Of a DNA stretch of 64,000 bases, positions 3,112-63,432 are shown piece after piece; the stretch's first letter is position 1, and each line of letters starts with the position of its first letter. Under the pieces are notes generated by a model. The model was given only the letters and a program-made list of their open reading frames with translations, had not been told where the DNA came from and did not search any database. Position numbers and translations under genes: made by a program. This DNA comes from Ensifer sp. IC3342 (GTDB lineage Bacteria > Pseudomonadota > Alphaproteobacteria > Rhizobiales > Rhizobiaceae), in NCBI RefSeq assembly GCF_020193655.1, contig NZ_JADYVE010000005.1, forward strand, positions 248,001 to 312,000, read 5' to 3'.

Positions 3112-5634
3112 CTATTGAACGGCGGCAGCCTCGTGCGACATGCTCCTGAACCGCTTGAGACGCAACGCATTACCGACGACGAAGACGCTTGAAAGTGCCA
3201 TGGCACCAGCCGCAAAGATGGGCGAAAGCAGCACGCCATAGGCCGGATAAAGCACGCCCGCGGCGACCGGTATCAACACCACATTATAGGCGAAGGCCCA
3301 GAACAGGTTCTCCTTGATGTTGCGGATTGTCGCCTTCGAAAGCGCGATGGCATTCGGCACACCGAGGAGATCGCCGGACATCAGCACGACGTCGGCGCTC
3401 TCGATGGCGACATCCGTTCCGGTGCCGATCGCCAGCCCGACATCCGCTGCCGCGAGCGCCGGCGCATCGTTGATGCCGTCGCCGACGAAGGCGACATTGC
3501 GCCCTTCCGCTTTCAGCCGCATCAGAGCCGCGACCTTTCCGTCCGGCAAGACCTCGGCCACGACCTCGTCGATCCCGAGTTTGCGGGCGATCGCCTCCGC
3601 CGTGCGGCGGTTGTCGCCGGTGACGATCGCTATCTTCAGGCCGAGCTGATGCAGCATGCGGATCGCCTGCGGCGTCGTCTCCTTGATCGGATCGGCGACG
3701 GCGATGATCGCCGCCAGCTTGCCGTCGATCGCCGCGTAAAGCGGGCTCTTGCCTTCGTCACCGAGGCGGCGGGCGTGATCAGTGAAGACGGCGATGTCGA
3801 TGCCCTCGCGCGCCATCAGCCTGTCGGCCCCGACAAGAACCGTGTGTCCGGAAACGTTGGCGCGGGTCCCGAAACCGGGGATCGCCTCGAATTGCTCCGC
3901 TTCGCCGATCGTCAAACCCGCGTTCCTTGCCGCGGAAACGATCGCTTCCGCGATTGGATGTTCGGAGCGTGCTTCGACGCTTGCAATGAGGGCAAGGACG
4001 GAATTGCTGTCAAAGCCCGCAGCGGTTTTGAGATCGGTCAGTTCGGGCCGGCCCCGGGTCAGTGTGCCGGTCTTGTCGATCGCGATGATTTCGGCGTTGC
4101 GCAGCGTCTGCAAGGCTTCCCCCTTGCGGAAGAGCACGCCCATTTCCGCAGCGCGACCGGTTCCGACCATGATGGAGGTGGGCGTTGCGAGCCCCATGGC
4201 GCAAGGGCAGGCGATGATGAGGACGGCAACGCCATTGACAAGCGCGAAGGTCAGCGCAGGATCCGGGCCGAGGACGAGCCAGACGAGGAACGTTGCAAAG
4301 GCGATCGCCATAACCGCGGGCACGAACCAGGCGGTGACGCGATCGACGAGCGACTGGATCGGCAGCTTCGCGCCCTGGGCCTGTTCGACCATGCGGATGA
4401 TCTGCGCCAGCACCGTATCCGCTCCGACCTTGGTGGCGCGGAAGCTGAAGGCTCCGGTTTTGTTGATCGTACCGCCGACGACTTCGGCCCCATCCGCTTT
4501 CTGAACGGGAACCGGCTCGCCGGTGATCATAGATTCGTCGACATAGGAGTTGCCCTCGACGACCACGCCATCGACGGCGATCTTTTCGCCGGGCCGCACG
4601 ACAACGACGTCGCCGGCACGCACATCGGCAATCTCAACCTCCACCGTTTCGCCATTGCGGATGACTCGAGCCGTCTTCGGCTGCAGCCCCATAAGGTGCC
4701 GGATTGCTTCCGACGTGCGACCTTTGGCGCGTGCTTCAAGGAAGCGGCCAAGCAGGATCAGCGTGACGATCACGGCCGCGGCCTCGTAATAGACGTTGGC
4801 GGTGTCGGCCGGCAGCAGGCCGGGCGCAAAGGTTGCCATCACGGAGTAACCCCAGGCGGCAAACGCGCCGATCGCGACCAGCGAGTTCATGTCCGGCGCC
4901 GCTCTGGCGAGCGCCGGAACGCCTTTCTGAAAAAAGCGCAGACCCGGCCCGAAGAGAGCGAGCGATGTGAGCACAAACTGCAGATACCAGCTTTCCTGCA
5001 TGCCGATGCGGATCATTACGAAATCGTGGATCGCAGGAACGAAATGCGATCCCATCTCGAGCACGAAAATGGGGAGTGTCAGAAGGGCGGCGATCGTGAG
5101 AGACAGCTTCAGGCGACGGCTTTCCCCTTCGCGTTTCTCCGTTTCCTGATCAACGTCCTTTTTGTCGGCGATGCGCCTGGCGTCGTAGCCCGCGCCGCGG
5201 ACGGCTTCGACCAGCATGTCCACGGAGGCGAGACCCTTGACGACGCGAACGGTGGCCTTCTCGGTGGCAAGATTGACGCTCGCCTCCACAATTCCGGGCA
5301 CGATTTTGAGCGCCTTCTCGATGCGGGCGACGCAGGAGGCGCAGGTCATGCCGTCGATGGCGAGCTCGATCAGCTCTTCGGATGCGCCATAACCCGTATT
5401 CTCGATCGCCTTGACGATATCTGCGGGGTTCGCCGCTGCGTCAAAGCGTATATCGGCCCGCTCCGTCGCCAGATTGACGGAGGCCGACAGGACGCCCGGC
5501 ACCGCGCGTATGGCCTTCTCCACTCTCGCGACGCAGGAGGCGCAGGCCATGCCCTCCACGGCGATGCTGGCCGTACGTCCCGACCCGGCAATCGGTTCGG
5601 CATTTCTCGTTTGGATGATCGTCGCGGATCCCAT
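3112..5634 (-). CDS. actP: Cu(I)-exporting P1B-type ATPase
   Basis: 840 residues. Two N-terminal heavy-metal-associated domains with GMACASC (Cys31, Cys34) and GMTCASC (Cys98, Cys101), eight predicted membrane segments, the actuator motif TGEPVP, the transmembrane copper motif CPC in [11 protein letters not shown], the phosphorylation motif DKTGTLTRG and the hinge [16 protein letters not shown]. It pumps Cu(I) from cytoplasm to periplasm. It follows the small HMA chaperone by 111 bp and precedes hmrR, so the unit is a copper-tolerance operon, probably induced from the CueR-type promoter at 5975-6005. In Sinorhizobium this ATPase is called ActP; copA is the wider name. Confidence 0.93.
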
Positions 5635-50450: not shown

Positions 50451-50843
50451 CCTTCTTATCCGCCTCTTACTTCATCGAGCAGCTACAGCAGTTGCAGCCC
50501 ACACCAACGGGCTGGATGTCAATGTATTCATCTGACCCTCCAAGTGTATTTTAATGCAATTCATGGCAAGGAGACCGCGCCGCCACGCATGAGATGACTG
50601 GTTTCCCCTAAGTAATGCTCTACCCTCTGCAAACCGTTGGCAAGTCGTCTCTACCGATACGCGGAATAAAAAGCCTCGGATGTCAGCAGCAGTGATGAAT
50701 TTGTGCTGAGAACATCGATATTTAATCTTGGTTTCATCCCCCAGGAAGAAGAAGCGAGGTTGCCTGCCGCAGGAGGCTTGCCACCTAAGAAAGACATTGC
50801 GGAGCGACAGGTCCTTGGCAGTATTGGCGTGTTCGCGCCGCCG
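50451..50843. other. Intergenic region between carbonic anhydrase and the GltS-type gene
   Basis: About 390 bp. It holds one copy of the 16-bp island motif (50603-50618) and a minus-strand mini-frame of 19 codons (50531-50472, MNTLTSSPLVWAATAVAAR) behind GGAGG. That mini-frame could be a leader peptide, or the displaced original start of the carbonic anhydrase mRNA. Nothing else recognised. Confidence 0.4.
50603..50618 (+). promoter_or_regulatory. Island motif copy a (TTCCCCTAAGTAATGC)
   Basis: Matches the 16-bp consensus TTCCCCTAAGTACAAT at its first 12 positions and diverges at the end. It lies upstream of the carbonic anhydrase gene in the reverse orientation. Confidence 0.5.
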
Positions 50844-52064
50844 TCACAGGGCGGCAAGAAACAGCCGGATCACGAGCGCATTTGCTATGTCGATGAAGAA
50901 CGCGCCGACAAGAGGCACGATGAGAAACGCCACATGCGAAGGCCCGTGTCGCTGGGTCACCGCAGTCATATTGGCCATTGCGGTCGGCGTCGCGCCGAGC
51001 CCGAAGCCGATGAAGCCCGCCGTTACGACCGCCGCGTCGTAGCTCCGTCCGAGCGCCCGGAAGCAAATATAGATCGCAAAGAATACCGCCAGAACGAGTT
51101 GAAGCGCGAGCAGCACGGATAGCGGGCCGGCAAGGTCGACAAGCGTCCATAGCTTCATGCTCATCAGCGACATCGCGAGAAACACGCCCAGCGAGACCTC
51201 CGCTATGAGGGCGAGCGCCGCCGTGCGGCTAGGCCAGACGCCGGAAGGAAAGACGCGCAGCAGCAGGTTCGTCAGCAGGATTCCGGCGGCAAGGCACGGG
51301 AGAAACAGTGGCATCTTGATCCCCATGCTCTCGAGCCCGCGGTGAGCCATGATGCCGATCATCCCGGCAATGTGAATGGCAAGGATCGCGCGCAGGAAGG
51401 AGAAGTAATCTATCTGGGGATGCTGTGCCTCGACAGGCACGCCGACGTCATACAACTGATCCGCCGGCGCCTTGAGCCGGTTCCGCTGGATCAGGAAGCG
51501 GGCGACTGGGCCGCCGGCAAGGCTCGCTAGAACGAGACCCATGGTCGCGCAGACAATGCCGATCTCCACCGCATTTGCGACCCCATGGGTGTCGGCGATG
51601 ACAGGCGCCCACGCGATCGCCGTCCCGTGCCCACCTGTCATCGACACGCTGGCCGCCAGCAGCCCGACCGACGGGTCCAGCCCAAGTAGGCTGGCCGCGC
51701 CGACGCCGGCGAGGTTCCCCGCAAACATGAAAGCCACCGTGACCGCGAGAAGCACTGCGAGCGGCTTCCCGCCTCGCGCGAGATCACTGACATGGGCGTT
51801 GATGCCGATGACCGTGAAGAAATAGACGAGCAGAATGTCGCGTGCCGTCAGTTCGAAATCGACCTTGACGCCCGAGATGAGATACACCACCCAGAACGCA
51901 ACCGAGAAGAGGAGCCCCCCGGTCACGGGCTCCGGAATGTTGTACTTGCGGAGAGCGGCAAGGCGCTGGTTGAGCGCCTTGCCGACGAAGAGTACCACAA
52001 CCCCGGTGGTGACCGACAGGAAAGGGAGCACGTGGAGCACCTGCTCTGCATCGAGTATGACCAT
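50844..52064 (-). CDS. gltS: Sodium/glutamate symporter family carrier (GltS)
   Basis: 406 residues, ten or more membrane helices. Both halves carry GltS signatures: NIPEPVTGGLLFSV near the start, SVSMTGGHGTAIAWAPV in the centre and GFIGFGLGATPTAMANMTAV near the end, the pore-loop repeats. Imports glutamate with Na+. It sits alone in the minus-strand island; a link to the sulfatase genes is not evident. Confidence 0.88.
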   Translation of the reverse strand: MVILDAEQVLHVLPFLSVTTGVVVLFVGKALNQRLAALRKYNIPEPVTGGLLFSVAFWVVYLISGVKVDFELTARDILLVYFFTVIGINAHVSDLARGGKPLAVLLAVTVAFMFAGNLAGVGAASLLGLDPSVGLLAASVSMTGGHGTAIAWAPVIADTHGVANAVEIGIVCATMGLVLASLAGGPVARFLIQRNRLKAPADQLYDVGVPVEAQHPQIDYFSFLRAILAIHIAGMIGIMAHRGLESMGIKMPLFLPCLAAGILLTNLLLRVFPSGVWPSRTAALALIAEVSLGVFLAMSLMSMKLWTLVDLAGPLSVLLALQLVLAVFFAIYICFRALGRSYDAAVVTAGFIGFGLGATPTAMANMTAVTQRHGPSHVAFLIVPLVGAFFIDIANALVIRLFLAAL

Positions 52065-52367
52065 CTGGTTCCCCCAACGCCAAGTCTATCGTATCGCAGA
52101 CGGTATGGCCCCCTAACGACGTTCGCTGGCGTCCGAAAGAGCCAGCGAAGACCCACGGACTTCGTTTGAGAGCCAGTCGTTAGTTCAGGCCATGCGCAGA
52201 AGATAGTGGCTTTCGCCCTGACGCTCACGCTCGGGTCGCTCGGCGGTCGGGTGATTACCGGCCGGCGCCCATGCCTCTATATGGGTAGGATCAGGCCCGT
52301 CGAAACATCACGACGGTCGGCGGCAATGGCCACCGATCGGCTCTTCCATTGGCGTCGCGCTGGCTTT
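52065..52367. other. Intergenic region upstream of gltS with an inverted repeat
   Basis: About 300 bp without a gene. A perfect 9-bp inverted repeat with a 10-base loop (TTCGCTGGC / GCCAGCGAA, 52122-52149) lies 58 bp before the gltS start and could be a regulator site or the end of the LssY-type mRNA from the other side. Otherwise nothing recognised. Confidence 0.35.
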
Positions 52368-53123
52368 CTACTGGGGTAGAGACGCATTACCGGCGGGAGC
52401 CCCGCCTTGCCTGTTCTCGGTTCCGCTCGCCACGATACCGATCAACGCCAGGCCATCGGTAAAGTATCGATCGCCGCCGCCGTTCCGGCCATCCGTCGTC
52501 GCCCCGATGCCGTCAATCTCGTAGGTCGACTCGATTTGCCCGGCGGCTTGCAGGTCGCTGATAAGAAAGTCTCGTTCGGCGTCGATGTCCGCGCCGATAT
52601 GATGGGTGATCTGGCCCGTATCGTGACTTAGTCCGACCCCACGATCGAAGGTGGCCGAACCGAGCCAGACCGGTCGGCCGTCGTTGTCGCTCCGATCCGT
52701 CAGCCAGAATCGCACGTGATGGCGCTGATCGGCGCTTTCTCCAACCGCTTTTTCGAAGGCGAGGTCCTGCTTTCGGCCGTCATAGAACAGCGGGCTTACC
52801 GGCGCCTCGCGGTCCGGCCGGTCAAGCACGACGCTAAGGCCGATGTCGATCGAGGAGCGCAAGGTGATTGCATCGGCGGGATACCAACGGGCAGCCGCAA
52901 AGGCACGCACCACCTGTGCTTTTGAGCCGACCAGACCGACGTTGATCGGGTCGCCGGGAATGTCATCAGCGGTGGCCGTCACCATTGTATTCGAGGCGGA
53001 AAGCCGATGCCGGTCGCGAAAGATCCAGATCTCCGGCACCACGAAGTATGCGAGCAGGAGATAGGCGGCAAGCGAGATGAGGAGCGCGGCCAGGGCGGCG
53101 TGGACGACGGACAATTGGCGCAT
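52368..53123 (-). CDS. LssY C-terminal domain protein, membrane anchored
   Basis: 251 residues. One N-terminal membrane helix (VVHAALAALLISLAAYLLLAYF) and then a soluble domain matching the LssY_C family: DPINVGLVGSKAQVVRAFAAARWYPADAITLRSS, SPLFYDGRKQDLAFEK, RHHVRFW, WLGSATFDRGVG, THHIGADIDAERDFLI. The domain's biochemical function is unknown. The ATG with GAGGAT upstream is preferred to one 24 bp earlier. An adjoining small exported-protein gene is upstream. Confidence 0.78.
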   Translation of the reverse strand: MRQLSVVHAALAALLISLAAYLLLAYFVVPEIWIFRDRHRLSASNTMVTATADDIPGDPINVGLVGSKAQVVRAFAAARWYPADAITLRSSIDIGLSVVLDRPDREAPVSPLFYDGRKQDLAFEKAVGESADQRHHVRFWLTDRSDNDGRPVWLGSATFDRGVGLSHDTGQITHHIGADIDAERDFLISDLQAAGQIESTYEIDGIGATTDGRNGGGDRYFTDGLALIGIVASGTENRQGGAPAGNASLPQ

Positions 53124-53295
53124 GTGATCCTCTTCGTGGCGGCGCAATACCCAAATTCACCAGGGCGTGTCCCCGGCAGTGTCGGAGAAATTCCATGGCG
53201 ACAGGGACAATCCATCCGGCACGCCTGAGTCTGGAGCGGGATGCGGCCGCAAGAACCATGGGTGTTCCGCACCCCGCCTCACCGGCCCGGGAGTG

Positions 53296-53646
53296 TTAAC
53301 GAACGTAGATCGTCAGCCCGCCGTCAGTCGCCTGTTCAGCGCCGCCGATGTTGTTCATCTCGACATTCTGCGCCTTCAGCTTTTCAGCCAAGGGCTTGTT
53401 CGCTTCGACCGCCTCGAGCAGCGCCGCGCGTTGTTCCGGCGTCGCATTCTCGACCCACAAGCGCGTTTGGTCCTGCTCCGAGAGTGTGCTGACGTCGACG
53501 ACATTGATCTTGTCGCCGCTGTAGCTGCGCACGGTCTGCTCTATCTCTTTGGGCCAGTTCATTTCGGCGCCCTGACCGTGTGCGATCCCCGCGAAGCTCA
53601 GGGCGGCGAGGCTGGCAATCATGGAAAAAGTCGCAATGCGGTTCAT
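53296..53646 (-). CDS. Small exported protein of unknown function
   Basis: 116 residues. Signal peptide MNRIATFSMIASLAALSFAGIAHG, then a mature ~90-residue protein (WPKEIEQTVRSYSGDKINVVDVSTL, TPEQRAALLEAVEANKPLAEKL) with no cysteines and no motif I recognise. Its promoter region carries a 40-bp stretch nearly identical to that of the arylsulfatase gene, including the island motif, so the two are probably coregulated. Confidence 0.75.
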   Translation of the reverse strand: MNRIATFSMIASLAALSFAGIAHGQGAEMNWPKEIEQTVRSYSGDKINVVDVSTLSEQDQTRLWVENATPEQRAALLEAVEANKPLAEKLKAQNVEMNNIGGAEQATDGGLTIYVR

Positions 53647-53752
53647 TGTTATGCTCCTTCCTAGGTTTTGCGCTTGTGACCGGGCGGCAATCAAGCGCGG
53701 CGGCTTGAACAACTCGTCCCATCTAAGATTACGCGAGACTTCACCGAGTGAT

Positions 53753-53768
53753 ATTGTCCTTAGGTGAA
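53753..53768 (-). promoter_or_regulatory. Island motif copy b (TTCACCTAAGGACAAT)
   Basis: Identical over 16 bp to the copy before the arylsulfatase (60531-60546), and by eye 34 of 40 bases agree when the comparison runs toward the genes. It is 107 bp upstream of the small exported-protein gene. Confidence 0.6.
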
Positions 53769-53785
53769 GTCGTCTGAACTTGCTG

Positions 53786-53885
53786 ACCGCTTTCAGGTTC
53801 TCGTCGCAGCTCGCCGTGATGAACAAGACCGGCGGGCCAGAACCCCGCTGCTCTCAGTTGCCGGTCCGGTTTCGAGATCGGCGTC
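53786..53885 (-). pseudogene. Remnant of a response-regulator receiver domain
   Basis: Translates in part as FITASCDENLKAV, against FITASGDENLKAA in the intact receiver at 60629-61003, and nucleotide similarity continues upstream through the frame-shifted segment. The part after DENLKA is deleted up to the island motif. It sits just after the histidine kinase gene and was probably its cognate regulator or a copy of the other one. Confidence 0.65.
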
Positions 53886-53997
53886 GATCTCACGGCAGAC
53901 GTTCAGCAAACGACCTGAGCCGCCATCCTTGCCCCCAAACCGCTGCACACGTTTGGGCGACGTGCATTAGAGTTTGATGAAAGCGTCGACGACTTTG

Positions 53998-55593
53998 CTA
54001 GACGGTAGGCAGGCTGACGCGGATTATAGTCCCGGCGGATTTGGATGAAGCCGAGATTCGGCCGTTGTGATGCTCGACGATTGTTTGACAAATGGCCAAT
54101 CCCAGACCCATCCCGCTGGACTTCGTGGTCGTGAACGGCTCAAAAATTCGGTCCGCGAGCGAGGGCTCGATACCCGGTCCTGTATCCTCGAGTTCCACAA
54201 TGACATCGTTGTTGGTAACAGAGGTCCTTATCTTTATTCGGCGGTCATCCTCGGTAGCAATCATTGCCTCAATCGCGTTGTGAACGAGATTGGCGACTAC
54301 CTGTCGCAGTTGCCCCTTGTTGCCCAGTACAAGTGGTATTCGTGCCGTTAAATCCAGGCTTGCTTTTACGTGGTTTTCGATAAGAGCGTATCTTTCGTTG
54401 CTGAGTACTTCTAACACCACATCGTTGACGTTGACTGGCTCTTTTTTGAGCTTGGTTTTGCCGAAAACGCCTGTGATGCCTTTCAATATCTGACCGGCAC
54501 GGCGAACGTCAGCAACGATGTCGGCTAAGGCCTCTTGCGCAGTCTTGGGGTCGGGCGGGATTCGCGTCAGGCAGAGCCGCGCAACTTCACCATTGGTCGC
54601 AATAGCTCCCAACGGTTGTCTGACCTCGTGCGCGATGGAAGATGCCATCGCCTCCAGACTCATTAGCTTGTTGGCGCGTTCGCGCTGCAGCAGCATGTTT
54701 GAGAGCACCAGGCGTGCGTGCAACGCCGTCAGTTCGCTTATTCCAACGATCAACACGAAAGTTGAGGCGGCGTAGGAGAAGATCCGACTTCCGTACCATG
54801 CAAGGCTAAATCGGGCCGGAACAAGAAGAGTTCCAAGCGTTATCTCAAACAGAAAGGCTCCGCATACTGCAATCAGCCACAGGTCAAGGACGGAGCGCCG
54901 GCGGACCCATAAGAGCGTCAGGCCCGCAGCAGCCGGCAGTATCAACGCTCCACCGTATGCTAGGCGGAAACCCAGGTTCACCTCAACGCGGTCGCGCATG
55001 ACGATCGGCAGCAGGGATTCTTGAGCGGTCGTAAACCACGTCAATCCGCCCACCAGAGCAAGAACGATTCCGACGCTCCAGCCGATCGCGCGTCCCCATG
55101 AATCGTCAATGACGCCTGCCGAACCCGGTGCATCTTTCAGCAGCACATAGCTGATGACTGAGATTGGCAGCGCCGCATGCCAGAACCAGTAAAGCCACGG
55201 GGCAGTTTGCAGTCCACCGCCGAGGAGCCCCATCGACGAGAATGCTCCCGGAAACGTCAAGGCATAGGGAACGATGATAAGCGCCGAGAAGAGATACCCA
55301 GAAGCCAAGATCAGGAGTGCCCTCTTTCTCGCGGCGGCAAAATGAGAAAGCAGCAAAGCGGCCGTCACGAGGTCGTTGATCACGATGGCCGTTGCGAGCG
55401 CCGGGATGAAGCCGTCCAGGCGCGGCAGGCGAACATCCTTGAACGGGAGGAGTGCGACAAACGTGACGGAGAGGATCGCTAGAACGGAGAAAGCCAGTCG
55501 GATGTGAGTCTTTGATGGCGGCAGTTGGGAAAGCAGGAACGAATCCTGAGCTGAAGCATCTCGTTCAGGCCAAAAAGTAGTCTCCCGCAACAT
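53998..55593 (-). CDS. Membrane sensor histidine kinase with MASE4-like N-terminal domain
   Basis: 531 residues. About eight membrane helices (residues ~30-290) in a MASE4-like arrangement, then a His-kinase dimerisation domain with the phospho-His in SSIAHEVRQPLGAIATNG near residue 310, and a HATPase domain with the N-box NLVHNAIEAM, DTGPGIEPS and GMGLGLAICQTI. Such kinases sense a membrane-level signal. The ATG has GGAG 8 bp upstream. A partner regulator directly downstream is decayed (53786-53885), so the kinase is now orphan or acts with the regulators at 60.6-61.9 kb (inference). Confidence 0.85.
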   Translation of the reverse strand: MLRETTFWPERDASAQDSFLLSQLPPSKTHIRLAFSVLAILSVTFVALLPFKDVRLPRLDGFIPALATAIVINDLVTAALLLSHFAAARKRALLILASGYLFSALIIVPYALTFPGAFSSMGLLGGGLQTAPWLYWFWHAALPISVISYVLLKDAPGSAGVIDDSWGRAIGWSVGIVLALVGGLTWFTTAQESLLPIVMRDRVEVNLGFRLAYGGALILPAAAGLTLLWVRRRSVLDLWLIAVCGAFLFEITLGTLLVPARFSLAWYGSRIFSYAASTFVLIVGISELTALHARLVLSNMLLQRERANKLMSLEAMASSIAHEVRQPLGAIATNGEVARLCLTRIPPDPKTAQEALADIVADVRRAGQILKGITGVFGKTKLKKEPVNVNDVVLEVLSNERYALIENHVKASLDLTARIPLVLGNKGQLRQVVANLVHNAIEAMIATEDDRRIKIRTSVTNNDVIVELEDTGPGIEPSLADRIFEPFTTTKSSGMGLGLAICQTIVEHHNGRISASSKSAGTIIRVSLPTV

Positions 55594-56098
55594 GGGTGTG
55601 CTCCTGCTTCGCTCGGTCCCACCATCCGACGAAATTCGGCGTCGAGTCACAAATCGGGCCAATCTAGGGAGCTTCACGGCCCTGCGTTGCGCATTGCAGT
55701 CTAAACCGGGTCTGGTGCTGGACTTCCGCTCGTCGTGTGCGCAGCGCTTGTTCCGCGCCCTCATCGGAATTGCGCTGAACTCTCCCCCGTACCGCGCACA
55801 GAGCTGCCGGCTCTTCAAGGAGGCCGACCTAAATGAAAATGCCCCGGAATTCCCTAAATAACAAGATCAATACGTTTAAAGTTGCATTTTTTCGTTCCTA
55901 GGTTGTGGCGCTTCTAACATGAGCAGGACCCCCAGGGAGGCGAAGCTCGGACGCCGCCGCATAATCCTGGGCTTCACATATGCAAGGCTCTAAAGAAGAG
56001 AAGGAGCGCGCCCTCTGCAGGCTGCGATCCCATCTTCACTTTTTCAGGAAGGGGAGACTGCGGGTGCGCGGCGCCGTCCATCGCTGGAGCGCTGGTTG
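55594..56098. other. Intergenic stretch with no recognised gene
   Basis: About 500 bp between the kinase start and the end of the DUF1254 pseudogene. Only weak open frames without ribosome sites. No copy of the island motif was found here. Confidence 0.4.
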
Positions 56099-56990
56099 CT
56101 ACTCAACCAACTCAACATCGGCGAGCTTGAAGCTGCGGCTCCAGAACGGCTCATCTCCGCCGCAAAAGCGCATGAGCGGACCGGCCTCTTGCCTTGCGTC
56201 GGGATCCAGTTGGCTTCGAGTCCCTCGGGCCGAAGTAGCTGTCGACACTACCGTCTGCGTCTTCCTCATGCCAGCAGTGTCGTATGTCGACAGGCCAACC
56301 TCTCCAGGGTTGTAAATGAAGGCGAAGGTCGCGTAGCCGTAGACGATCAGGACCAGAACTGCTTGACCGGCATGTCCGCCGGCACGCGTAGACGATAGAA
56401 GCGCCCGGCTTCGTTCCATAGCAGCCTTGTATTTGGGCGGCGGATTGAAGGGCCTGCCTGCCTCGATGCCCAGGCTGGCCAGCATTCCCATGATGACCTT
56501 GTCGCGTGGACGTACGGGCTCCCCGTCGAGCGCCTCGTAGAGGTTGCGGAAGTAGCGAAGGTCGTAGAAGGCGAGCGTATGCATCGGCTGGGCCCACGTA
56601 TCGGCGAAGCGCGTCGGCTTGGGATTCGGTGCCTCGGCAAGCGGATACATGCGCAGACCAGATGGTTATATCGTTGTCCGCTCCCCGAACTACCGCATCT
56701 CCTTTGCCTTCCGGTCCGTCAAGTTTCCCGGAATGACGGACGATGACGCCCCTGCCTATGCGCAGAAGGTACCGCGCCGTCGTAGCCGGGAGGAAGGAAG
56801 AGGTACTTGCCTCCCCTTGCTGTGGTCAAAGCCGGACGGACCAACGGCAGCAATGGCCTCCTGCCATGCATCGACGACCTGCCCGAAAAGGACGCCCTCC
56901 TCTGAATGGGGCGGCCTCCTTTCGGGAAACTTGCGACCTCACTCCGGTCCAATCGGGCGCGGGAGCAAGATTCAGACGCTCCCGGGTCCA
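56099..56990 (-). pseudogene. DUF1254/DUF1214 protein, frameshifted and with an internal inversion
   Basis: Pieces of one protein are readable in order on the minus strand but in several frames: LFGQVVDAWQEAI and GGKYLFLPPGYDGAVP (about 56900-56767), MYPLAEAPNPKPTRF to FNPPPKYKAAMER (56650 to ~56410), RLRVPADMPVKQFW, YGYATFAFIYNPGEVGLSTYD and GGDEPFWSRSF at the end. The piece that belongs between GAVP and MYPLAEA, namely DGYIVVRSPNYRISFAFR to DDDAPAYAQ, is on the plus strand (about 56661-56765). At least three frameshifts are present besides the inversion. The family is exported and often adjoins sulfatases; its function is unknown. Confidence 0.8.
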
Positions 56991-57008
56991 GTTGGGAAGT
57001 CCCGGAGC

Positions 57009-57509
57009 CTATTGGGCTTCCTGGCAGGCGCGTAGCGCCTGAAACGCAGCATCGGTTCCGGCCAGGCTCAGCACGATGGGATCACGGCCGTTCGGCGTGA
57101 TCGTCAGCGTCTTCTTCTTGGCAAGGTCGTAGATGAAATCTGGATTGTTGAACCGGGCGTACGCTCCTTCGTAACCGTCGATCCGCTGACCGATAGCCTC
57201 ACCCTCGAACATCTGTCCGTCAATGTCGAACATCACGGACAACTTCTCTCCCGCGGCGATCGTGGCATCCGCCTTGTTGTAAAGCGCCATGTAGCCGTGC
57301 ACATCGTCTTTCGCGTTGATACCCATTTCAACCTGCTGGCCGGCCTCGTTAATTTTCGCGAGCAGGCATCCGGGGCCCATGTCCTTCCTGATAAAGATGT
57401 CCCAGCCAGCTTCCGAGCCGTATTTCTTGAACATCTCCTGAGCGCCCGCGCCTGTTGCGCACAGACCTGCAAGGACCAGCGCTGTACCGAATAAACTCTT
57501 CGCAAACAT
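57009..57509 (-). CDS. Exported protein of unknown function
   Basis: 166 residues. Signal peptide MFAKSLFGTALVLAGLCATGAGA, then EMFKKYGSEAGWDIFIRKD, GCLLAKINEAGQQVEMGIN, and ending DPIVLSLAGTDAAFQALRACQEAQ. Two cysteines, one early and one at the end, could pair. The closing segment (LSLAGTDAAFQALRAC) resembles the end of many small rhizobial periplasmic proteins. GGAGA precedes the ATG. Lies between the DUF1254 pseudogene and the Tat protein gene, probably in one unit with the latter. Confidence 0.75.
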   Translation of the reverse strand: MFAKSLFGTALVLAGLCATGAGAQEMFKKYGSEAGWDIFIRKDMGPGCLLAKINEAGQQVEMGINAKDDVHGYMALYNKADATIAAGEKLSVMFDIDGQMFEGEAIGQRIDGYEGAYARFNNPDFIYDLAKKKTLTITPNGRDPIVLSLAGTDAAFQALRACQEAQ

Positions 57510-57588
57510 GGTGTTCTCCGTTGTTGCTGTACTCCAAGCCATTCTCCGGCCCCGGCTACTTGCCCCGGCCCGACTGGCGGTGCTGCAC

Positions 57589-58113
57589 TCAGTAAAGGAA
57601 CGCACGCCTGTATGCGCGACGCGCCACGCCCGCATAGGATAGGGGCGTCAGTGGCATGCCTATGATGTCGATGAACACCGACACGTCGGCGCCCTTCTCC
57701 GGCAGCTCTCCGTCTATGACCTGGACCGCATAGGAAAGCCTGTCGGCGTTCAGTTCCGGATCCTTGAGGACGACCACGACCTGCTTGAGCTCGCCTCCCT
57801 CGAGGATCGACAAGTCGGCATTGGGCGGGTCGGAAAGGAAGCTGTCCTTGCCCTTGCTCCAGAATGGAACGAAGGCGGCCGTCTTCATGTTTCCGGCGAT
57901 ACGCTCCGGACGATCGGAAAAAAACAGGGTAGAACCGGAAACGCCTTCCAGCGTGATTTTGCTCGTACCCTTGTCGTAACTCATCGCATCCGCCGTTTGG
58001 ACGAAGAGGAAGTCCGCCACCTCATCGGCTGCGTGGACAGATCTCACCCTTGGCGAAACCGCCGCCACCGCCAAAGTGGAAGCCGCCAACAGAAGATTTC
58101 GTCGAGTGGTCAT
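57589..58113 (-). CDS. Tat-exported protein of unknown function
   Basis: 174 residues. Twin-arginine signal MTTRRNLLLAASTLAVAAV ending near HAADE, then a compact domain: FLFVQTADAMSYDKGTSKITL, TLFFSDRPERIAG, FVPFWSKGKDSFLSDPPNADL, LKQVVVVLKDPELNADRLSY. I know this as an uncharacterised exported family that accompanies DUF1254 and sulfatase genes. The island motif lies 148 bp before the ATG. Confidence 0.75.
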   Translation of the reverse strand: MTTRRNLLLAASTLAVAAVSPRVRSVHAADEVADFLFVQTADAMSYDKGTSKITLEGVSGSTLFFSDRPERIAGNMKTAAFVPFWSKGKDSFLSDPPNADLSILEGGELKQVVVVLKDPELNADRLSYAVQVIDGELPEKGADVSVFIDIIGMPLTPLSYAGVARRAYRRAFLY

Positions 58114-58260
58114 CTTTTCGCTCCGTTGATAGTTGATGACAGGTATTGTTGGCCTACCGGCCCCATCTCGCTTGATCGCCCGGCCACACGTCGGGCCGCA
58201 CCTGCATGTATCGCGGCCCCTGATCCTCGACGATACTGATCTGAAATCTGCTAGGGGGCT

Positions 58261-58276
58261 ATTGTCCTAAAGGGAA
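58261..58276 (-). promoter_or_regulatory. Island motif copy c (TTCCCTTTAGGACAAT)
   Basis: Two or three changes from the consensus, ending in the same GGACAAT as copies b, d and e. It lies 148 bp upstream of the Tat-exported protein gene and directly after the HAD remnant. Confidence 0.55.
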
Positions 58277-58302
58277 GCTGGCGCTCTTCACCCACACCAG
58301 GT

Positions 58303-58443
58303 GGCGGGGCCGGTCGTCCACTGGAGCATATCGAGGTCGTCGTCCGAATTGCCGAATGCGGCAATCGGACGAATGCCGATCTGCTCGTGTATGCTCATCG
58401 ACGTGCCGGGGCCGTCGTCAACGAAATTGATCTGCGGCATGCG
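58303..58443 (-). pseudogene. Fragment of a HAD-family phosphatase
   Basis: About 45 codons remain: MPQINFVDDGPG, IGIRPIAAFGNSDDDLDML and QWTTG. The FGNSDxDxxML motif is HAD motif IV of the phosphoserine-phosphatase-like group. The N-terminal half with the nucleophile Asp and the last ~40 residues are missing. It follows the arylsulfatase terminator. Confidence 0.7.
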
Positions 58444-58565
58444 GAAAAAACGTCGGGATTCCTTCGCGCATCTGAAAAATGCGTCTTGATCGAGGAGCCA
58501 ACGACCTGATCGGGGGGCACCCCGCAGGGGAAGAAGGTAGCGCGGATAGGCGCTTCCTTGAAGCA

Positions 58566-58592
58566 AACGGGCGGCCGAGAGAGCCGCCCGTT
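58566..58592 (-). terminator. Rho-independent-type terminator of the arylsulfatase gene
   Basis: Perfect 10-bp stem AACGGGCGGC / GCCGCCCGTT with a 7-base loop, 10 bp after the stop codon; on the minus strand it is followed by TGCTT rather than a long T-run. Confidence 0.7.
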
Positions 58593-58602
58593 CGATTCTA
58601 TC

Positions 58603-60291
58603 CTAGTTACCGGGCTTGTTTCGGATTGCCTCGTCGATCCGCTTTTTGACGGCGTCAAGATTGAAGGAAGCCGGGTCCTGCATCGGCGGATAGTCAATCG
58701 CGGTGAGGGCGAGTTTCGCGACCTCCTGCTGAACGCTGACAAATCGCCAGAACTCGCGTGCATAGAAGTCATTCATGTAGCCCCCGCCGAGGTCGTTAAG
58801 GCTTTGACCGCCAATTGATGGCGTCCGCTCGAAGGGATCCTGGCGGATGTTCACCATGGTGGGCATGTCGGTCGTCACCTTGGGGCCGGGCCAACCGCCT
58901 GGCTGCTCATAGAACTGGAACTTGAAGTCACCGATGCGGATGGCGCCAAGGTGCGGACCGCCGAAATAGAAGAATTCGTGACGCGCAGACGGTCCTTTGC
59001 CCTGCAGCAGGTCCAACTGGTTGTAGCCGTCAAGGTGGTTCTTGTAGGTCCGGTCGCCAAACTTCACACCCTTCAGAAGTTGCTCGCTGATGTTGGGATT
59101 GCCGGCTGCTGCCAACAGCGTGGGGAACCAGTCCATGGCTGAGAAGATACCGTTCTCAACCGTGCCCGGCTTGACCATGCCCGGCCAGCGAATGATTGCC
59201 GGAGCGCGGAAGCCGCCTTCAAACACGGTACCCTTGGTGCCCTTGAACGGGGTCATGCCGCCATCGGGCCAGGTGAAGACTTCTGCGCCATTGTCGGTGG
59301 TGAAGATGACGATGGTGTTGTCAGTCTCGCCCGCGTCCTCCACGCACTTCAAGAGGGCGCCGACGCTGTCATCCAGTTGCGCCATGCCGGCTTCTTCAAG
59401 GCCATAGTTGGTCTTGCTGTCCATAAGCGCCCGGTATTTCGGCGACAGAAACGTCCACACGTGCATGCGCGTGGTGTTGTGCCAAACAAAGAACGGCTTG
59501 CTGTCGGTCTTGGCTTTGTCCATGAAGTCGCACGAAGCCTTGACCAGCACCTCATCAAACGTACCCATGTCGTATTTGGCCTTGGGCGTGATGTCGTGCA
59601 TGTTCGGCACGTTGGACATGTCGGGGTACGGCGCCAGCGGCCCCTCATCGACGATCCTCTGCTTGCCGATCTTGCCCCAGCGCGGCTGTTCTGTCGCGTC
59701 GTCGGTATCGGTCGCGAATGCATGCACCAGATTTCGCGGCCCGACTTTGTCACGGTACGACTGGTCATCCGGGAACGAATACCAATAGGGATCCGACATT
59801 GCGTCGAGGTGGTACAGGTATCCGAAGAATTCGTCGAAGCCGTGTAACGTGGGCAGGTATTTGTTCAGGTCGCCGAGATGGTTCTTGCCGAATTGGCCGG
59901 TGGAGTAACCCTCGGACTTGAGGGCGGCGGCTATGGTAGCCGCTTTGTCGGGCATACCGACGTCCGCGCCGGCCTGGCCAACGGTCGTCAAGCCCGTCCG
60001 CAACGGGATCTCGCCTGTGATGAAGGCCGCCCGCCCTGCAGTACAGCTTGCTTCAGCATAATAATCGGTGAACATCATGCCTTCGGACGCAAGCTTGTCC
60101 AGGTTCGGCGTCTTCCCGGACATGATGCCCCGGTGATAGGCGCCGATATTGAACCAACCGACATCGTCGCCCATGATCACCAGGATGTTGGGCTTGGGTT
60201 GGTTCTGTGCTTGGACCACTGACGTGCTGCTCAAAAGAACAGCCCCGATAGTCAGTGCCGTCGCAATGCAAGTTGCTCTTGTTCCTCTCAT
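58603..60291 (-). CDS. Exported arylsulfatase (type I, formylglycine-dependent)
   Basis: 562 residues. Signal peptide to about VVQAQ, metal ligands Asp42-Asp43 in VIMGDDVGW, and the sulfatase signature CTAGR with Cys83, which must be converted to formylglycine; then GKNHLG, TDNGAEVFTWPDGGMTPFKGTKGTVFEGG. Releases sulfate from sulfate esters in the periplasm. The expected sulfatase-maturing enzyme is not in this window. The start at MRGTRAT is chosen because GAGGAAGG lies 9 bp before it; MNNMRG at 60300 leaves no spacing. Its promoter carries island motif copy d. Confidence 0.9.
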   Translation of the reverse strand: MRGTRATCIATALTIGAVLLSSTSVVQAQNQPKPNILVIMGDDVGWFNIGAYHRGIMSGKTPNLDKLASEGMMFTDYYAEASCTAGRAAFITGEIPLRTGLTTVGQAGADVGMPDKAATIAAALKSEGYSTGQFGKNHLGDLNKYLPTLHGFDEFFGYLYHLDAMSDPYWYSFPDDQSYRDKVGPRNLVHAFATDTDDATEQPRWGKIGKQRIVDEGPLAPYPDMSNVPNMHDITPKAKYDMGTFDEVLVKASCDFMDKAKTDSKPFFVWHNTTRMHVWTFLSPKYRALMDSKTNYGLEEAGMAQLDDSVGALLKCVEDAGETDNTIVIFTTDNGAEVFTWPDGGMTPFKGTKGTVFEGGFRAPAIIRWPGMVKPGTVENGIFSAMDWFPTLLAAAGNPNISEQLLKGVKFGDRTYKNHLDGYNQLDLLQGKGPSARHEFFYFGGPHLGAIRIGDFKFQFYEQPGGWPGPKVTTDMPTMVNIRQDPFERTPSIGGQSLNDLGGGYMNDFYAREFWRFVSVQQEVAKLALTAIDYPPMQDPASFNLDAVKKRIDEAIRNKPGN

Positions 60292-60300
60292 GTTATTCAT

Positions 60301-60628
60301 CCTTCCTCGGAACGTCTTCTGTCAGCGCGGCCAAGGCTTGTCTTGACTTGCGCTGACGTGGTCTGCACATCACGACAAAATTCCACGCGAATACCGGCAC
60401 TTGGTGCCGTCATCCTTCTTCTCGGCTTTTCGCCATTATCGGGGGCGGTTGTATCGCCTCCATTGTATGGGTGATGGCAACGCTCCCGCATCACGCCAGA
60501 TTAGACTTACGCAGGATTTGCCCGAGCGATATTGTCCTTAGGTGAAGCCCGTTATGATCTAGCAGGATACGCGCAGAGGTGATGAACCGACCTGCGCAAT
60601 CGGCGCTGTCCGGTGAAAATCCGTCCGC
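60301..60628. other. Promoter region of the arylsulfatase gene
   Basis: About 330 bp between the response regulator end and the sulfatase start. It holds island motif copy d (60531-60546) with a 40-bp extension shared with the region at 53.75 kb. The leader between motif and start is about 240 bp, longer than for the other units; no small gene was recognised in it. Confidence 0.5.
60531..60546 (-). promoter_or_regulatory. Island motif copy d (TTCACCTAAGGACAAT)
   Basis: Identical to copy b. Oriented toward the arylsulfatase gene, 240 bp before its ATG. Confidence 0.6.
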
Positions 60629-61003
60629 CTACCGATCGCGCAGGGCGCTCGTGACGGCAGCAATCAGCGCTTCCGGCGGAAACGGCTTCTGCAAATAGGC
60701 GGCGCAATGCAAACTGATCGCGGCCGCTTTCAGGTTCTCGTCGCCGCTCGCGGTGATGAAGATAACCGGCAGGCTGGAGCCCGCCGCCGTCAGTCGACGT
60801 CGCAAGTCGAGACCGGACATGCCCGCAAGGCGGATGTCTAGCACGAGGCAGGCAAGCTGACTGTCTTGATTGCGGTCGAGAAACGCTTCCGCCGAGGCAA
60901 ACGCCTCGACGGCAAAGCGACTTGCCGTCAGCAGGCGTTGGATGCTCCTGAGCATGCTGGGGTCGTCTTCGACGACTGCGATCGTGTACAGCTGGCCGTC
61001 CAA
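60629..61003 (-). CDS. Single-domain response regulator (receiver only)
   Basis: 124 residues from a TTG preceded by AAGGAAAGG at 6 bp. Receiver motifs: acidic pair VVEDD (residues 13-14), phospho-acceptor Asp56 in LVLDIRLAGMSG, Thr in FITASGDE, and Lys106 in YLQKPF. It belongs to the FixJ-like receiver group but has no output domain, so it may act as a phosphate shuttle or sink. A longer TTG start at 61054 lacks a ribosome site and would leave only 25 bp to motif copy e. A decayed relative lies at 53786-53885. Confidence 0.82.
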   Translation of the reverse strand: MDGQLYTIAVVEDDPSMLRSIQRLLTASRFAVEAFASAEAFLDRNQDSQLACLVLDIRLAGMSGLDLRRRLTAAGSSLPVIFITASGDENLKAAAISLHCAAYLQKPFPPEALIAAVTSALRDR

Positions 61004-61078
61004 AGTCTGCCTTTCCTTAACCGCTGGATGGCGATGCCAGCGTACTCCAGTCAATGAGCCGAAACGCGAATTGTTCCT

Positions 61079-61094
61079 ATTGTCCTTTCGGGAA
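61079..61094 (-). promoter_or_regulatory. Island motif copy e (TTCCCGAAAGGACAAT)
   Basis: Shares both ends of the consensus (TTCCC and GGACAAT) with changes in the middle. It lies 76 bp before the TTG start of the single-domain response regulator. Confidence 0.5.
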
Positions 61095-61112
61095 ACAGCT
61101 CGCGTGGGCTAT

Positions 61113-61217
61113 CTACAGCGTCCTTTGCGCGTCTTATCAGACGAGCGAAGGACGCTGTAGCACGTTGAATTGCTGCATGTTTCCTTAAATCGGCTACGAT
61201 TTAAGGAAACATGCAGC
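61113..61217. repeat. RIME-type double-palindrome intergenic repeat, copy 2
   Basis: About 105 bp with two near-perfect palindromes, ACAGCGTCCTTTGCGC...GACGCTGT and GCTGCATGTTTCCTTAAATC...ATGCAGC. Its arms are better preserved than in copy 1 (1500-1606), so it may be the younger insertion. It separates the two response-regulator genes and could process or attenuate a joint transcript. Confidence 0.8.
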
Positions 61218-61287
61218 TGGGTCTGCACTCACGAGTGCATAACCAGATCGGAAACAGGATTCGCGGGTTTGGGTCTGGAGACCGGTT

Positions 61288-61929
61288 TCACGGCTTATGT
61301 GGAGTGGCAGAGTGGTCCAGCAGGCCGAGTTGCTCGGCGATCGAGACCAGTTCTGCCAGTGATTGCGCTCCGAGCTTTTCCATGATGCTTCGCCGGTGCG
61401 CCTTAACGGTTCTCTCAGAGGTGCCAAGCTCATAAGCAACCTGCTTGTTCCGTTTGCCGCGCACAATGAGATTGAAGACGACGGACTCTCGTTGCGTCAG
61501 GCTCGCCACGAGCGTTTGGAGCATGACGCCGTGTTCATGTTCGATCGCCCGTTGCTGGTAGCGATACATCGCCCGTTCGATGGCTGCCAGCAAGGCGCTG
61601 CTCGAAGCGGTCTTCTCAAGGAAGTCTTCGGCCCCCGCCTTTATCGCCCGCACCGTAGTCTCGATATCGCCATGCCCCGTTAGGAAAACAATCGGCAGCA
61701 GCGGCGCTGCCTCGGCCAGACGATCCTGCAGTTCGAGCCCGCCAAGGCCCGGCATGCGTAAATCAAGCAGAATGCATCCAGGTTCCTCGATCGGCAGTCG
61801 TGCCAGAAACTCGGTGCCCGATTCGTAGCATGCGGATCTGAATCCCGATGCCTCAACCAGACGTCCGACCGACGTGCGATATGCCTTATCGTCATCGACG
61901 ATGTGCACGATCGGGATGGGGGAGCTCAT
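61288..61929 (-). CDS. FixJ/NarL-type response regulator
   Basis: 213 residues. Receiver with VDDD, phospho-acceptor Asp56 in ILLDLRMPGLGG, FLTGHGDIETTVRAIKAGAEDFLEK (Lys106; the usual following Pro is Thr), then a LuxR-type HTH (LTQRESVVFNLIVRG, RNKQVAYELGTSERTVKAHR, IMEKLGA). Its ATG overlaps the stop of the kinase remnant (ATGA), so it was translated together with that kinase. It is the best candidate in the window to bind the 16-bp island motif (inference). Confidence 0.88.
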   Translation of the reverse strand: MSSPIPIVHIVDDDKAYRTSVGRLVEASGFRSACYESGTEFLARLPIEEPGCILLDLRMPGLGGLELQDRLAEAAPLLPIVFLTGHGDIETTVRAIKAGAEDFLEKTASSSALLAAIERAMYRYQQRAIEHEHGVMLQTLVASLTQRESVVFNLIVRGKRNKQVAYELGTSERTVKAHRRSIMEKLGAQSLAELVSIAEQLGLLDHSATPHKP

Positions 61930-62216
61930 GACGCCTGCACCAAGCTGACCACGGCACCGGCGCCGCCGTCCCGGCGTTTGCCGGGCCATATCTTCCCGCC
62001 GTATGTTTCGATCGGCCGCACTCTGGCGATCTCACCGATGATGCTCGTCGCAGCAAGCCGTTCATCGTAGGGATAAACGATCAGGACGGGAGGGGCACGC
62101 CTGATGATTTCAGCCTCGGCTTTGCCGATAGCACTGAGGAAAAAGAGCAGCAGCAAAACTGAACATTCGGCGATACCAGCTAGGCTGCTCCGCCGACAGC
62201 TGACAAGACCCCGCAT
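61926..62216 (-). pseudogene. Sensor kinase reduced to its two ends by an internal deletion
   Basis: A 96-codon frame. The N-terminal part is a signal-anchor (LLLLFFLSAIGKAEA) followed by PPVLIVYPYDERLAATSIIGE, like kinases with a periplasmic ABC-binding-type sensor. The C-terminal part, ETYGGKIWPGKRRDGGAGAV, is the last strand segment of a HATPase domain (usual form EAHGGRIW...DGGAVF). Everything between, including the His and ATP sites, is gone. The frame is kept, so coupling to the FixJ-type gene persists. Confidence 0.75.
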
Positions 62217-62589
62217 GATGAGACCAATGTTTCGCTAGCAAACTGTCAATGCCGACGGTTACGGGCTCAAGATACCTTGACATCACTGCTTCTGTAAAGG
62301 CGCGGCTTTGCCGGTCGATGTAACGACAAAGTAGGGGTGCAGATTCCCCTAAGTACAATGTAGCTAACGCAAATTTCGCTTAGGTTATTGTAGAGTAATC
62401 ATCCTCGCGAAGGCGGTTGCTAATCACGACCCCATACGGCGTCACGCGCGCGCCTCAAGAGGTCGGCGCGGACTTTGCAAGCGCAAAAGGAGGGGAAAGG
62501 ACAAAAAAGTTACCTGTCCGGCCGCCGTCTCCTTTGTCGGCAAAACTTGAAAAAGGCGAGGCTGCCAAATACCACTGGCTTGCTGGCTG
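62217..62589. other. Intergenic region upstream of the kinase remnant
   Basis: About 370 bp with one island motif copy (62344-62359) and a looser related string (TTCGCTTAGGTTATT, 62375-62389) 31 bp away. No gene recognised. Confidence 0.4.
62344..62359 (+). promoter_or_regulatory. Island motif copy f (TTCCCCTAAGTACAAT)
   Basis: The copy taken as the reference. It lies 128 bp upstream of the kinase remnant/FixJ-type unit, in the reverse orientation to that unit, and 230 bp upstream of the plus-strand barrel fragment. Confidence 0.55.
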
Positions 62590-63432
62590 GTGATCGCTTT
62601 TACGAGTTGCTTGTCATGGCGCATGAACATGATAGCTATACTCATGTTATGTGAGTCCAAGGAACCCGTTGGAATGCCTCCAGGCGCCACCTACAGAGCC
62701 ACTGCAGCATTCGCTCCAATGAGACGGTATTTCGGCACGCTTGGTCTAGCGGGCAAAGTATCACGCATCTCAGAGAGCGCTGGATTCCCGATCTATGGCC
62801 TCGGCGCGATCGAGGCCAACGGCTATGGCTTCGGCGGCACGCTCACCTGGTACGGCAATGGCGGCCTCTATGTCGACGGCCAGGCGCAGGCGACCTGGTA
62901 TGACAGCGATCTCACCTCGGCCACGCTTGGCAGAACGCTTGCCGACGGCAACGACGGCTTCGGCTACGGCCTCAGCATCGAGGCCGGACAGAAGATCACA
63001 CTCAGGAGCAACTGGTCGATCACCCCGCAGGCGCAACTCGTCTATTCCTCGGTCAGGTTCAGCGACTTCACCGATCCCTTCGGCGCCCGGGTGTCACTCG
63101 ACGACGGCGAATTCCTGATCGGCCGCATCGGCCTTTCGGCGGATTACGAGAGCGAGTGGCGCAGCGCGACGGGCGGGATCAACCGGGTGCATGTCTACGG
63201 CATCGCCAATCTCTATTACGACTTCCTCGGCCGGATGACGACCGAGGTCGCCGGTACCCGCTTTACCAGCGGGAACGAGGATCTTTGGGGCGGGATCGGC
63301 GTCGGCGGCTCGCTTAACTGGGCCGACGACAAATATTCGGTCTATGGAGAGGCAACGGCAAAAACCAGCATCAACGATTTCGGCGACAGCGGCACCGTCA
63401 GTGGCACGGTCGGCTTCCGGGTCCGATGGTAG
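62590..63432 (+). pseudogene. Autotransporter barrel, C-terminal fragment
   Basis: From about 62775 the frame reads as an autotransporter beta-barrel: GYGFGGTLTWYGNGGLYVDG, WYDSDLTSATLGRTLADGNDGFGYGLSIEAG, RVHVYGIANLYYDFL, LWGGIGVGGSLNWADDKYSVYGE and the C-terminal GTVGFRVRW with final aromatic residue. The ~60 codons before it have no signal peptide or passenger character, and the passenger is absent, so this is a 5'-truncated gene joined to unrelated sequence. A terminator follows. Confidence 0.7.

Follow-up and report, generated by a model that had tools for sequence, protein, structure and literature searches.

Do the copies of a short motif scattered over the sulfatase island of Ensifer sp. 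IC3342 define one regulon and, if they do, which protein reads them? A first-pass annotation of a 64,000-nt stretch (contig NZ_JADYVE010000005.1, positions 248,001 to 312,000; hereafter the window) had listed six copies of a 16-bp motif, each upstream of a minus-strand unit, and had named the FixJ/NarL-type regulator of the island as the candidate binder. We conclude that five of the six sites (b to f; Table 1) are genuine copies of the motif and that, in its 20-bp form, it is very probably the operator of the FixJ/StyR-like response regulator encoded at 61288-61989, which would control a sulfatase-related regulon by class II activation.

The motif and its promoters

Searching the window for TTCCCCTAAGTACAAT with up to three mismatches gave five matches, against 0.15 expected from shuffled sequences: 53753, 58261, 60531 and 61079 on the minus strand and 62344 on the plus strand. 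A matrix trained on nine sites of relatives, and on none of the window, scored these five at 21.9 to 29.6 bits; the runner-up place in the whole 64 kb reached just 12.4 bits (48122), which agrees with the earlier remark that no copy was seen in the first 50 kb. Sites b and d, said to be identical with a likeness extending to about 40 bp, do share the same 16 bp and are 85% alike across 41 nt (repeat family D5). The sixth copy (site a, 50603), attributed to the carbonic anhydrase gene, was rejected as a regulon member: it has only TTCCCCTAAGTA in common with the others, is not within three mismatches and scores 0.0 bits with an 18-site matrix built from the window and five relatives, which leaves that gene without a site. 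Upstream of the MASE4 kinase gene of the island, the best score was 12.1 bits, under every threshold applied.

The full motif is a 20-mer (consensus GCTTCCCCAAAGGACAATAT) that probably represents an inverted repeat, degenerate and close to a 7-2-7 arrangement. The repeat is clearest in distant relatives (ATTGTACC-AA-GGTACAAT) and nearly perfect at two of their loci (L122 and L126); in rhizobia the left half is degenerate. Over 67 distinct 20-mers the best dyad centre is at position 9.5, with only 45% of the pairs matching. The promoter context was assessed on 60 sites of relatives scoring at least 20 bits, picked on the 20-mer alone after removal of near-duplicates. A sigma70-like TAnnnT begins 18-20 bp past the 20-mer in 37 of them, and exactly at 20 in 29, while 1000 rounds of flank shuffling gave 1.7 such sites at 18-20 bp on average and 7 at most. 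Among the window sites, the hexamer is strict at b and f, near at d and weak at c and e. Setting the -10 at -12 puts the dyad centre close to -42, i.e. at the class II position of sigma70 activators, and the spacing suggests that the site is placed as that of a class II activator would be.

Paired sites were seen at two loci: in a Phyllobacterium (L075), two identical copies downstream of the regulator gene (8634 and 8835) start 201 bp from one another, perhaps a tandem duplication, and on a deltaproteobacterial contig (L098), copies at 3804 and 3825, offset by 21 bp or roughly two turns of the helix, precede a receiver-like frame. In the window, two hairpins stand between the regulator gene and operator e (61113-61160 and 61172-61217; arms of 22 nt, 91% complementary, and 21 nt, 100% complementary, with loops of 4 nt).

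Link between the site and the regulator

The regulator has a receiver and a LuxR-type (GerE) output domain, which places it in the NarL/FixJ family; its conserved start is at 61929 and its recognition helix reads SERTVKAHRRS. Relatives were collected by a genome-collection scan with six regulator sequences, and the best 80 of 551 were retained. One of the two seed patterns of the scan was SERTVKAH and ERTVK is over-sampled, yet the site score played no part in the choice. With the 18-site matrix and a 17-bit threshold, 30 of the 36 loci sharing at least 50% identity have a site no further than 170 bp downstream of the regulator, and 27 of 33 still do once the three loci lying on the same contigs as training sites (L070, L071, L074) were removed. 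Below 50% identity the proportion dropped to 7/44. Two hundred column-shuffled matrices reached at most one and two loci, respectively.

The sequence of the recognition helix separates the regulators further. Among 114 non-redundant ones, a site lies within 250 bp downstream in 43 of the 59 with ERTVK (training loci being among the 43) and in none of the 55 with another helix (Fisher 4e-18). Below 50% identity, with the threshold lowered to 10 bits, the figures were 13/19 for ERTVK versus 1/54. Thus, co-occurrence of the site with the regulator and its covariation with the recognition helix across genomes are well supported by these comparisons and point to this protein as the probable binder of a single regulon, as originally proposed. 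In the receiver domain, the conserved Lys is followed by Thr in the window regulator (EKT) and by Pro in five close relatives aligned; Thr occurs there in 2 of 37 other scorable regulators.

How specific is the motif at the scale of genomes? A genome-wide scan had been suggested as a check, and its outcome is that the motif is not promoter-blind. Model R1, built from 46 sites (five from the window, the others including sites of G003, G013, G017 and G030), returned from the 7.4-Mb genome the five window sites and a single one on another contig (C39; E-value 0.024; 150 of 771 first-look candidates scored), which precedes a gene with DUF1254 and DUF1214 domains. Operator d, itself a training site, is the top match (E 1.6e-6). 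Among 60 genomes searched, own included, the regulator is present at 66-68% identity in five others; the remaining matches, with E up to 1e-40, do not exceed 46%. The pattern TATTGTMCTTWGGKGAA, with one mismatch allowed, is found in 7 of 33 genus genomes, namely the own genome, the five regulator carriers and G014, and its reversed version in none of the 33. Likewise, all 20 R1 matches with E below 0.01 fall in the six regulator-bearing genus genomes, on which R1 was partly trained. The next ones are site f (0.016), a site in G019 (0.019) and the C39 site. Several of the outlying sites precede sulfatase or DUF1254/DUF1214 genes, among them those on C39 (own genome, G000), G019 C23, G017 C21 and G333 C24. 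In ten genomes or records reached via the regulator loci, mostly training sources, R1 gave 1-5 matches with E of 0.05 or less (2-5 in nine of them). pSymA of S. meliloti 1021 (NC_003037.1) has five, clustered at about 523-526 kb and 949-951.5 kb, where the frames behind the sites resemble receiver and sulfatase genes and, on the reversed side, kinase genes.

A second island with two sites is visible in G017 (L061, on C21), with a sulfatase gene and a receiver gene that by eye appears degraded. The right flank of the window (L041) has no site of at least 8 bits; at L041:2371-5499, it encodes proteins related to the Tat-type one (47%) and to the small exported one (82%) and holds a DUF1254/DUF1214 gene, all without a site.

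A number of observations weigh against a single regulon read by this regulator. The match in G014 falls inside a reading frame and is probably due to chance, and at a loose E of 0.5, R1 matches something in 25 of the 33 genus genomes. The G019 site, as good as f, precedes a sulfatase gene with no close regulator, and in R. ruizarguesonis a sulfatase gene has two sites beside it although no regulator turned up within some 6 kb: these sites may be relics or belong to another regulator. Judged from the next open frame, no recognised target follows the sites of G017 C33, G337 C40 and C44, and G334 C12. Sixteen of the 59 ERTVK regulators are without a nearby 17-bit site; of five close orthologues of the sulfatase, three have a site of at least 17 bits, one has a 16.2-bit site and one has none at 14. 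Four Verrucomicrobia loci with the conserved gene neighbourhood described below (L107, L114, L123, L125) are without a site of 14 bits or more. Finally, a strict TAnnnT with the expected spacing is present in the window at b and f only.

Could the box be something other than an operator? The box is strongly conserved and, in 37 of the 60 sites, keeps a constant spacing to a conserved -10, which would also fit a promoter element made of an upstream box and a -10 and used by an extracytoplasmic function (ECF) or other alternative sigma factor. We find this improbable: the -10 has the sigma70 form, the box covers 20 bp with a partial dyad symmetry that becomes nearly perfect in Aminicenantes, its presence tracks the helix of a response regulator, and no sigma factor gene is listed in the three annotated stretches around the regulator. 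It seems quite improbable, too, that the binder is another DNA-binding protein such as a paralogous FixJ-type regulator. The sulfatase-associated sites of G019 and R. ruizarguesonis would be accounted for in that way, but no 17-bit site was found when 1.5 kb to either side of 24 more remote FixJ-type regulators (L007-L030) was scored (best score 9.1 bits), nor at any of the 55 regulators with other helices. That the copies merely belong to a dispersed repeat or a segment duplication devoid of regulatory meaning is highly improbable. Site b, which adjoins a 59-nt receiver fragment 85% identical to the receiver gene near d, was probably brought by such a duplication; however, beyond the 20-mer and the -10 the flanks of most sites differ, the own-genome scan yields only six sites, and the sites of different genera keep their position with respect to regulator and -10. 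Recognition of the motif by the island's own FixJ/StyR-like regulator is the reading retained below.

Site f, the lost kinase and the other genes of the island

Site f had been described as reversed relative to the FixJ-type operon that it was thought to precede. Its plus orientation stands; its attribution to that operon does not, and comparison with relatives makes it best read as the promoter of a divergent gene. Of 40 loci examined, 26 carry a reversed site some 2 kb upstream of the regulator, at the start of the kinase gene. The -10 faces away from the kinase in 24 of the 26; on the kinase side, for which the permitted span was wider, a -10 is also present in two of the 26. The first open frame faced by the reversed site, as called by script with close strains kept, is a sulfatase in 17 cases, a HAD hydrolase in six and another frame in three; at one of these three loci (L077), there is a 92% sulfatase match at that place. 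An 86-87% relative of the window arylsulfatase is the divergent gene in E. adhaerens CTYH.Ch1 and R. jaguaris; in the window itself, the arylsulfatase gene stands behind operator d and is not divergent from f. In the window, the place of the relatives' sulfatase or HAD hydrolase gene is taken by a truncated autotransporter frame. On this comparison, f would be a promoter that has lost its gene.

The first-pass annotation was also incomplete in that it had overlooked that the kinase gene beside the regulator is a deletion remnant. A kinase frame of 623-633 aa directly precedes the regulator in L035, L037 and L039. Most loci with an identity of at least 56% have a long kinase match in this place, L090, L095 and L097 being without. 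The window regulator has no intact histidine kinase beside it; what is left is an in-frame stub where a signal-peptide/YPYDER start (to IGEIARVR) is fused to the IETYGGKIW end and which overlaps the conserved start of the regulator. No full-length copy was found elsewhere in the own genome, the eight matches covering the kinase domain only, at 31-38%. For the relatives' kinase, Pfam names kinase domains only; in a profile search, the sensor part matched 3lkv (2e-8, uncharacterized) and 6hni (1.4e-6, ABC-type solute-binding protein), and by profile it resembles solute-binding proteins. In G030 (L034:13886-15677), the kinase is broken into frames of 519 and 99 aa, which reflects either an easily lost kinase or a sequencing error.

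Table 1. Operators, genes and gene remnants of the island (window coordinates; operator scores from the relatives-only matrix)
Feature	Position	Strand	Remarks
Operator b	53751..53770	-	29.0 bits; -10-like TAATCT at 53726-53731; precedes exported-protein gene
Operator c	58259..58278	-	24.0 bits; weak -10; precedes gene of Tat-type exported protein
Operator d	60529..60548	-	29.6 bits; -10-like TAAGTC at 60504-60509; precedes arylsulfatase gene
Operator e	61077..61096	-	25.7 bits; weak -10; precedes single-domain receiver gene; place downstream of the regulator gene kept in relatives
Operator f	62342..62361	+	21.9 bits; -10 TAGGTT at 62381-62386, plus strand
FixJ/NarL-family response regulator	61288..61989	-	Pfam Response_reg 2.3e-26 and GerE 1.6e-19; proposed binder
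Sensor kinase remnant	61926..62216	-	96 aa, in frame; aligned to kinases of 633 and 630 aa (L037, L039)
Single-domain receiver	60629..61054	-	Pfam Response_reg
Arylsulfatase	58603..60300	-	Pfam Sulfatase
Tat-type exported protein	57589..58113	-	Open frame, Tat (twin-arginine translocation) signal by eye; no Pfam match; end overlaps frame 57009-57635
MASE4 sensor histidine kinase	53998..55818	-	Pfam MASE4, HisKA, HATPase_c; no adjacent regulator gene
Receiver-gene fragment	53787..53845	-	59 nt, 85% identical to 60724-60782 (repeat family D1); directly upstream of operator b
Exported protein	53296..53646	-	116 aa; 94% identical in S. medicae (G017), there too behind a site
LssY_C protein	52368..53147	-	Pfam; behind exported-protein gene
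Autotransporter open frame	62590..63432	+	N-terminally truncated; Pfam Autotransporter, profile positions 42-254 of 255

The genes around the sites are themselves conserved. Proteins 86-91% identical to the arylsulfatase are found on five Rhizobium and Ensifer plasmids. The promoter of operator b, site included, has an orthologue in S. medicae (L040:203), where it is again preceded by a receiver-like fragment (L039:19884-19994); a receiver-promoter segment was probably duplicated before b drove the exported-protein gene. According to annotated records, R. indicum has kinase, regulator, receiver, formylglycine-generating enzyme and arylsulfatase genes, while in S. meliloti and S. medicae the first three of these are accompanied by a divergent arylsulfatase gene. 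Genes for arylsulfatase and HAD hydrolase also lie by the regulator at the four Verrucomicrobia loci mentioned above, in a planctomycete (L104) and in a betaproteobacterium (L103), the last two with a 22-bit site each; in L107, kinase, regulator, receiver, formylglycine-generating enzyme, arylsulfatase and HAD hydrolase are consecutive. Two other Verrucomicrobia loci (L111, L120) do have a site. By eye, a receiver-like frame follows the site in L098, L120, L121, L122 and L126, whose sources are Deltaproteobacteria, Verrucomicrobiota, Desulfobacteraceae and Aminicenantes.

The MASE4 kinase is a possible replacement for the lost one. Outside the own genome, its best homologue among 297 genomes of the order is 44% identical (L198) and belongs to an island holding a 55% regulator and a 26.1-bit site. 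There, the MASE4 homologue directly adjoins a different regulator (helix SPRTVEFHR), which may be its true partner. A second such co-location is in L092, and seven other stretches (six of the 11 remaining MASE4 matches plus one S. medicae plasmid) were without a site. One may go further and imagine a sulfatase-control set (kinase, FixJ-like regulator, receiver, formylglycine-generating enzyme, arylsulfatase and HAD hydrolase) common to rhizobia, Verrucomicrobia and Planctomycetes, in which sensors can be exchanged and the operator drifts. Here the sensor would have been swapped: the original kinase, with its periplasmic-binding-type sensor, would have been reduced to the 96-aa stub, which may keep translational coupling, and the MASE4 kinase would feed the old regulator. 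We regard this scenario as rather doubtful because of the adjoining regulator in L198 and the four Verrucomicrobia loci without a site.

Proposed mechanism and comparison with known systems

The sites, their spacing to the -10, the link with the regulator and its helix and the conserved neighbourhood can be read directly from the sequences. In the mechanism that we propose, a dimer of the phosphorylated regulator would bind around -42, overlapping the -35 region, and activate sigma70-type promoters. The predicted regulon comprises the receiver, the arylsulfatase, the Tat-type and small exported proteins together with LssY_C, and one distant DUF1254/DUF1214 gene. In a feedback or phosphate-sink role, the lone receiver could draw phosphate off the kinase and so weaken the response. 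As the cognate kinase is reduced to a stub, the input would come from another kinase, perhaps the MASE4 kinase of the island, or would be lost.

Motif-word, gene-number and keyword searches of open-access papers returned no description of this regulon. The analysis provides a regulator group for which no description was found with a predicted operator, promoter architecture and regulon, including in the widely used laboratory strain S. meliloti 1021. In the large FixJ family, it ties the recognition helix ERTVK to an operator, as a testable specificity code. Genes for sulfatases, DUF1254/DUF1214 proteins and HAD hydrolases would also come under a single signal pathway, and the island offers a natural case of a regulator kept after loss of its kinase.

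How does the proposed pair of regulator and operator compare with those already described? The solved structure closest to the regulator is 1yio ('response regulatory protein'), which we take to be StyR, followed by FixJ (5xso). StyR contacts DNA through Lys175, Val176 and His179 (PMC5874301). When this numbering is placed on the KVHRH stretch, the window regulator keeps the Lys but has Ala for Val176 and Arg for His179, i.e. only one of the three contact residues characteristic of StyR/TodT; among its relatives, His is present in many and Val in part. The StyR/TodT/TmoT operator, ATAAACN4GTTTAT, is a 16-bp inverted repeat with a geometry like that of the present motif; the half-sites differ (TTGTACC in distant relatives here versus ATAAACN), and the targets here are sulfatase-related.

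Rhizobial FixJ has the same NarL/FixJ domain order as the window regulator and binds an imperfect palindrome of 16-18 bp upstream of fixK (PMC4999443). Its sites TAAGTAATTTCCCTTA, GTAGTTTCCC and GTAMGTAG differ from the motif, TTCCC being common to both. With the NCBIfam FixJ model, the regulator scores 182 bits against a cut-off of 255: it is not FixJ proper, the oxygen-responsive regulator of fixK and nifA. FxkR of R. etli and R. leguminosarum, a FixJ-analogous rhizobial regulator, has an operator of its own (GTTACA-N4-GTTACA; PMC4999443) that is unrelated to ours in sequence. SMa1686, a FixJ-like core gene of S. meliloti, is reported to be RirA-regulated (PMC4560400) and may be one of the pSymA copies found here. 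In E. coli NarL, a dimer of the output domain sits on inverted heptamers 2 bp apart, a 7-2-7 arrangement (PMC4549865). The engineered NarL site TACCCCTAAAGGGGTA has CCCCTAA in common with our motif (PMC4549865); when this stretch is aligned, the NarL centre is one base off the best dyad centre of our motif, and the outer half-site bases and the regulon differ.

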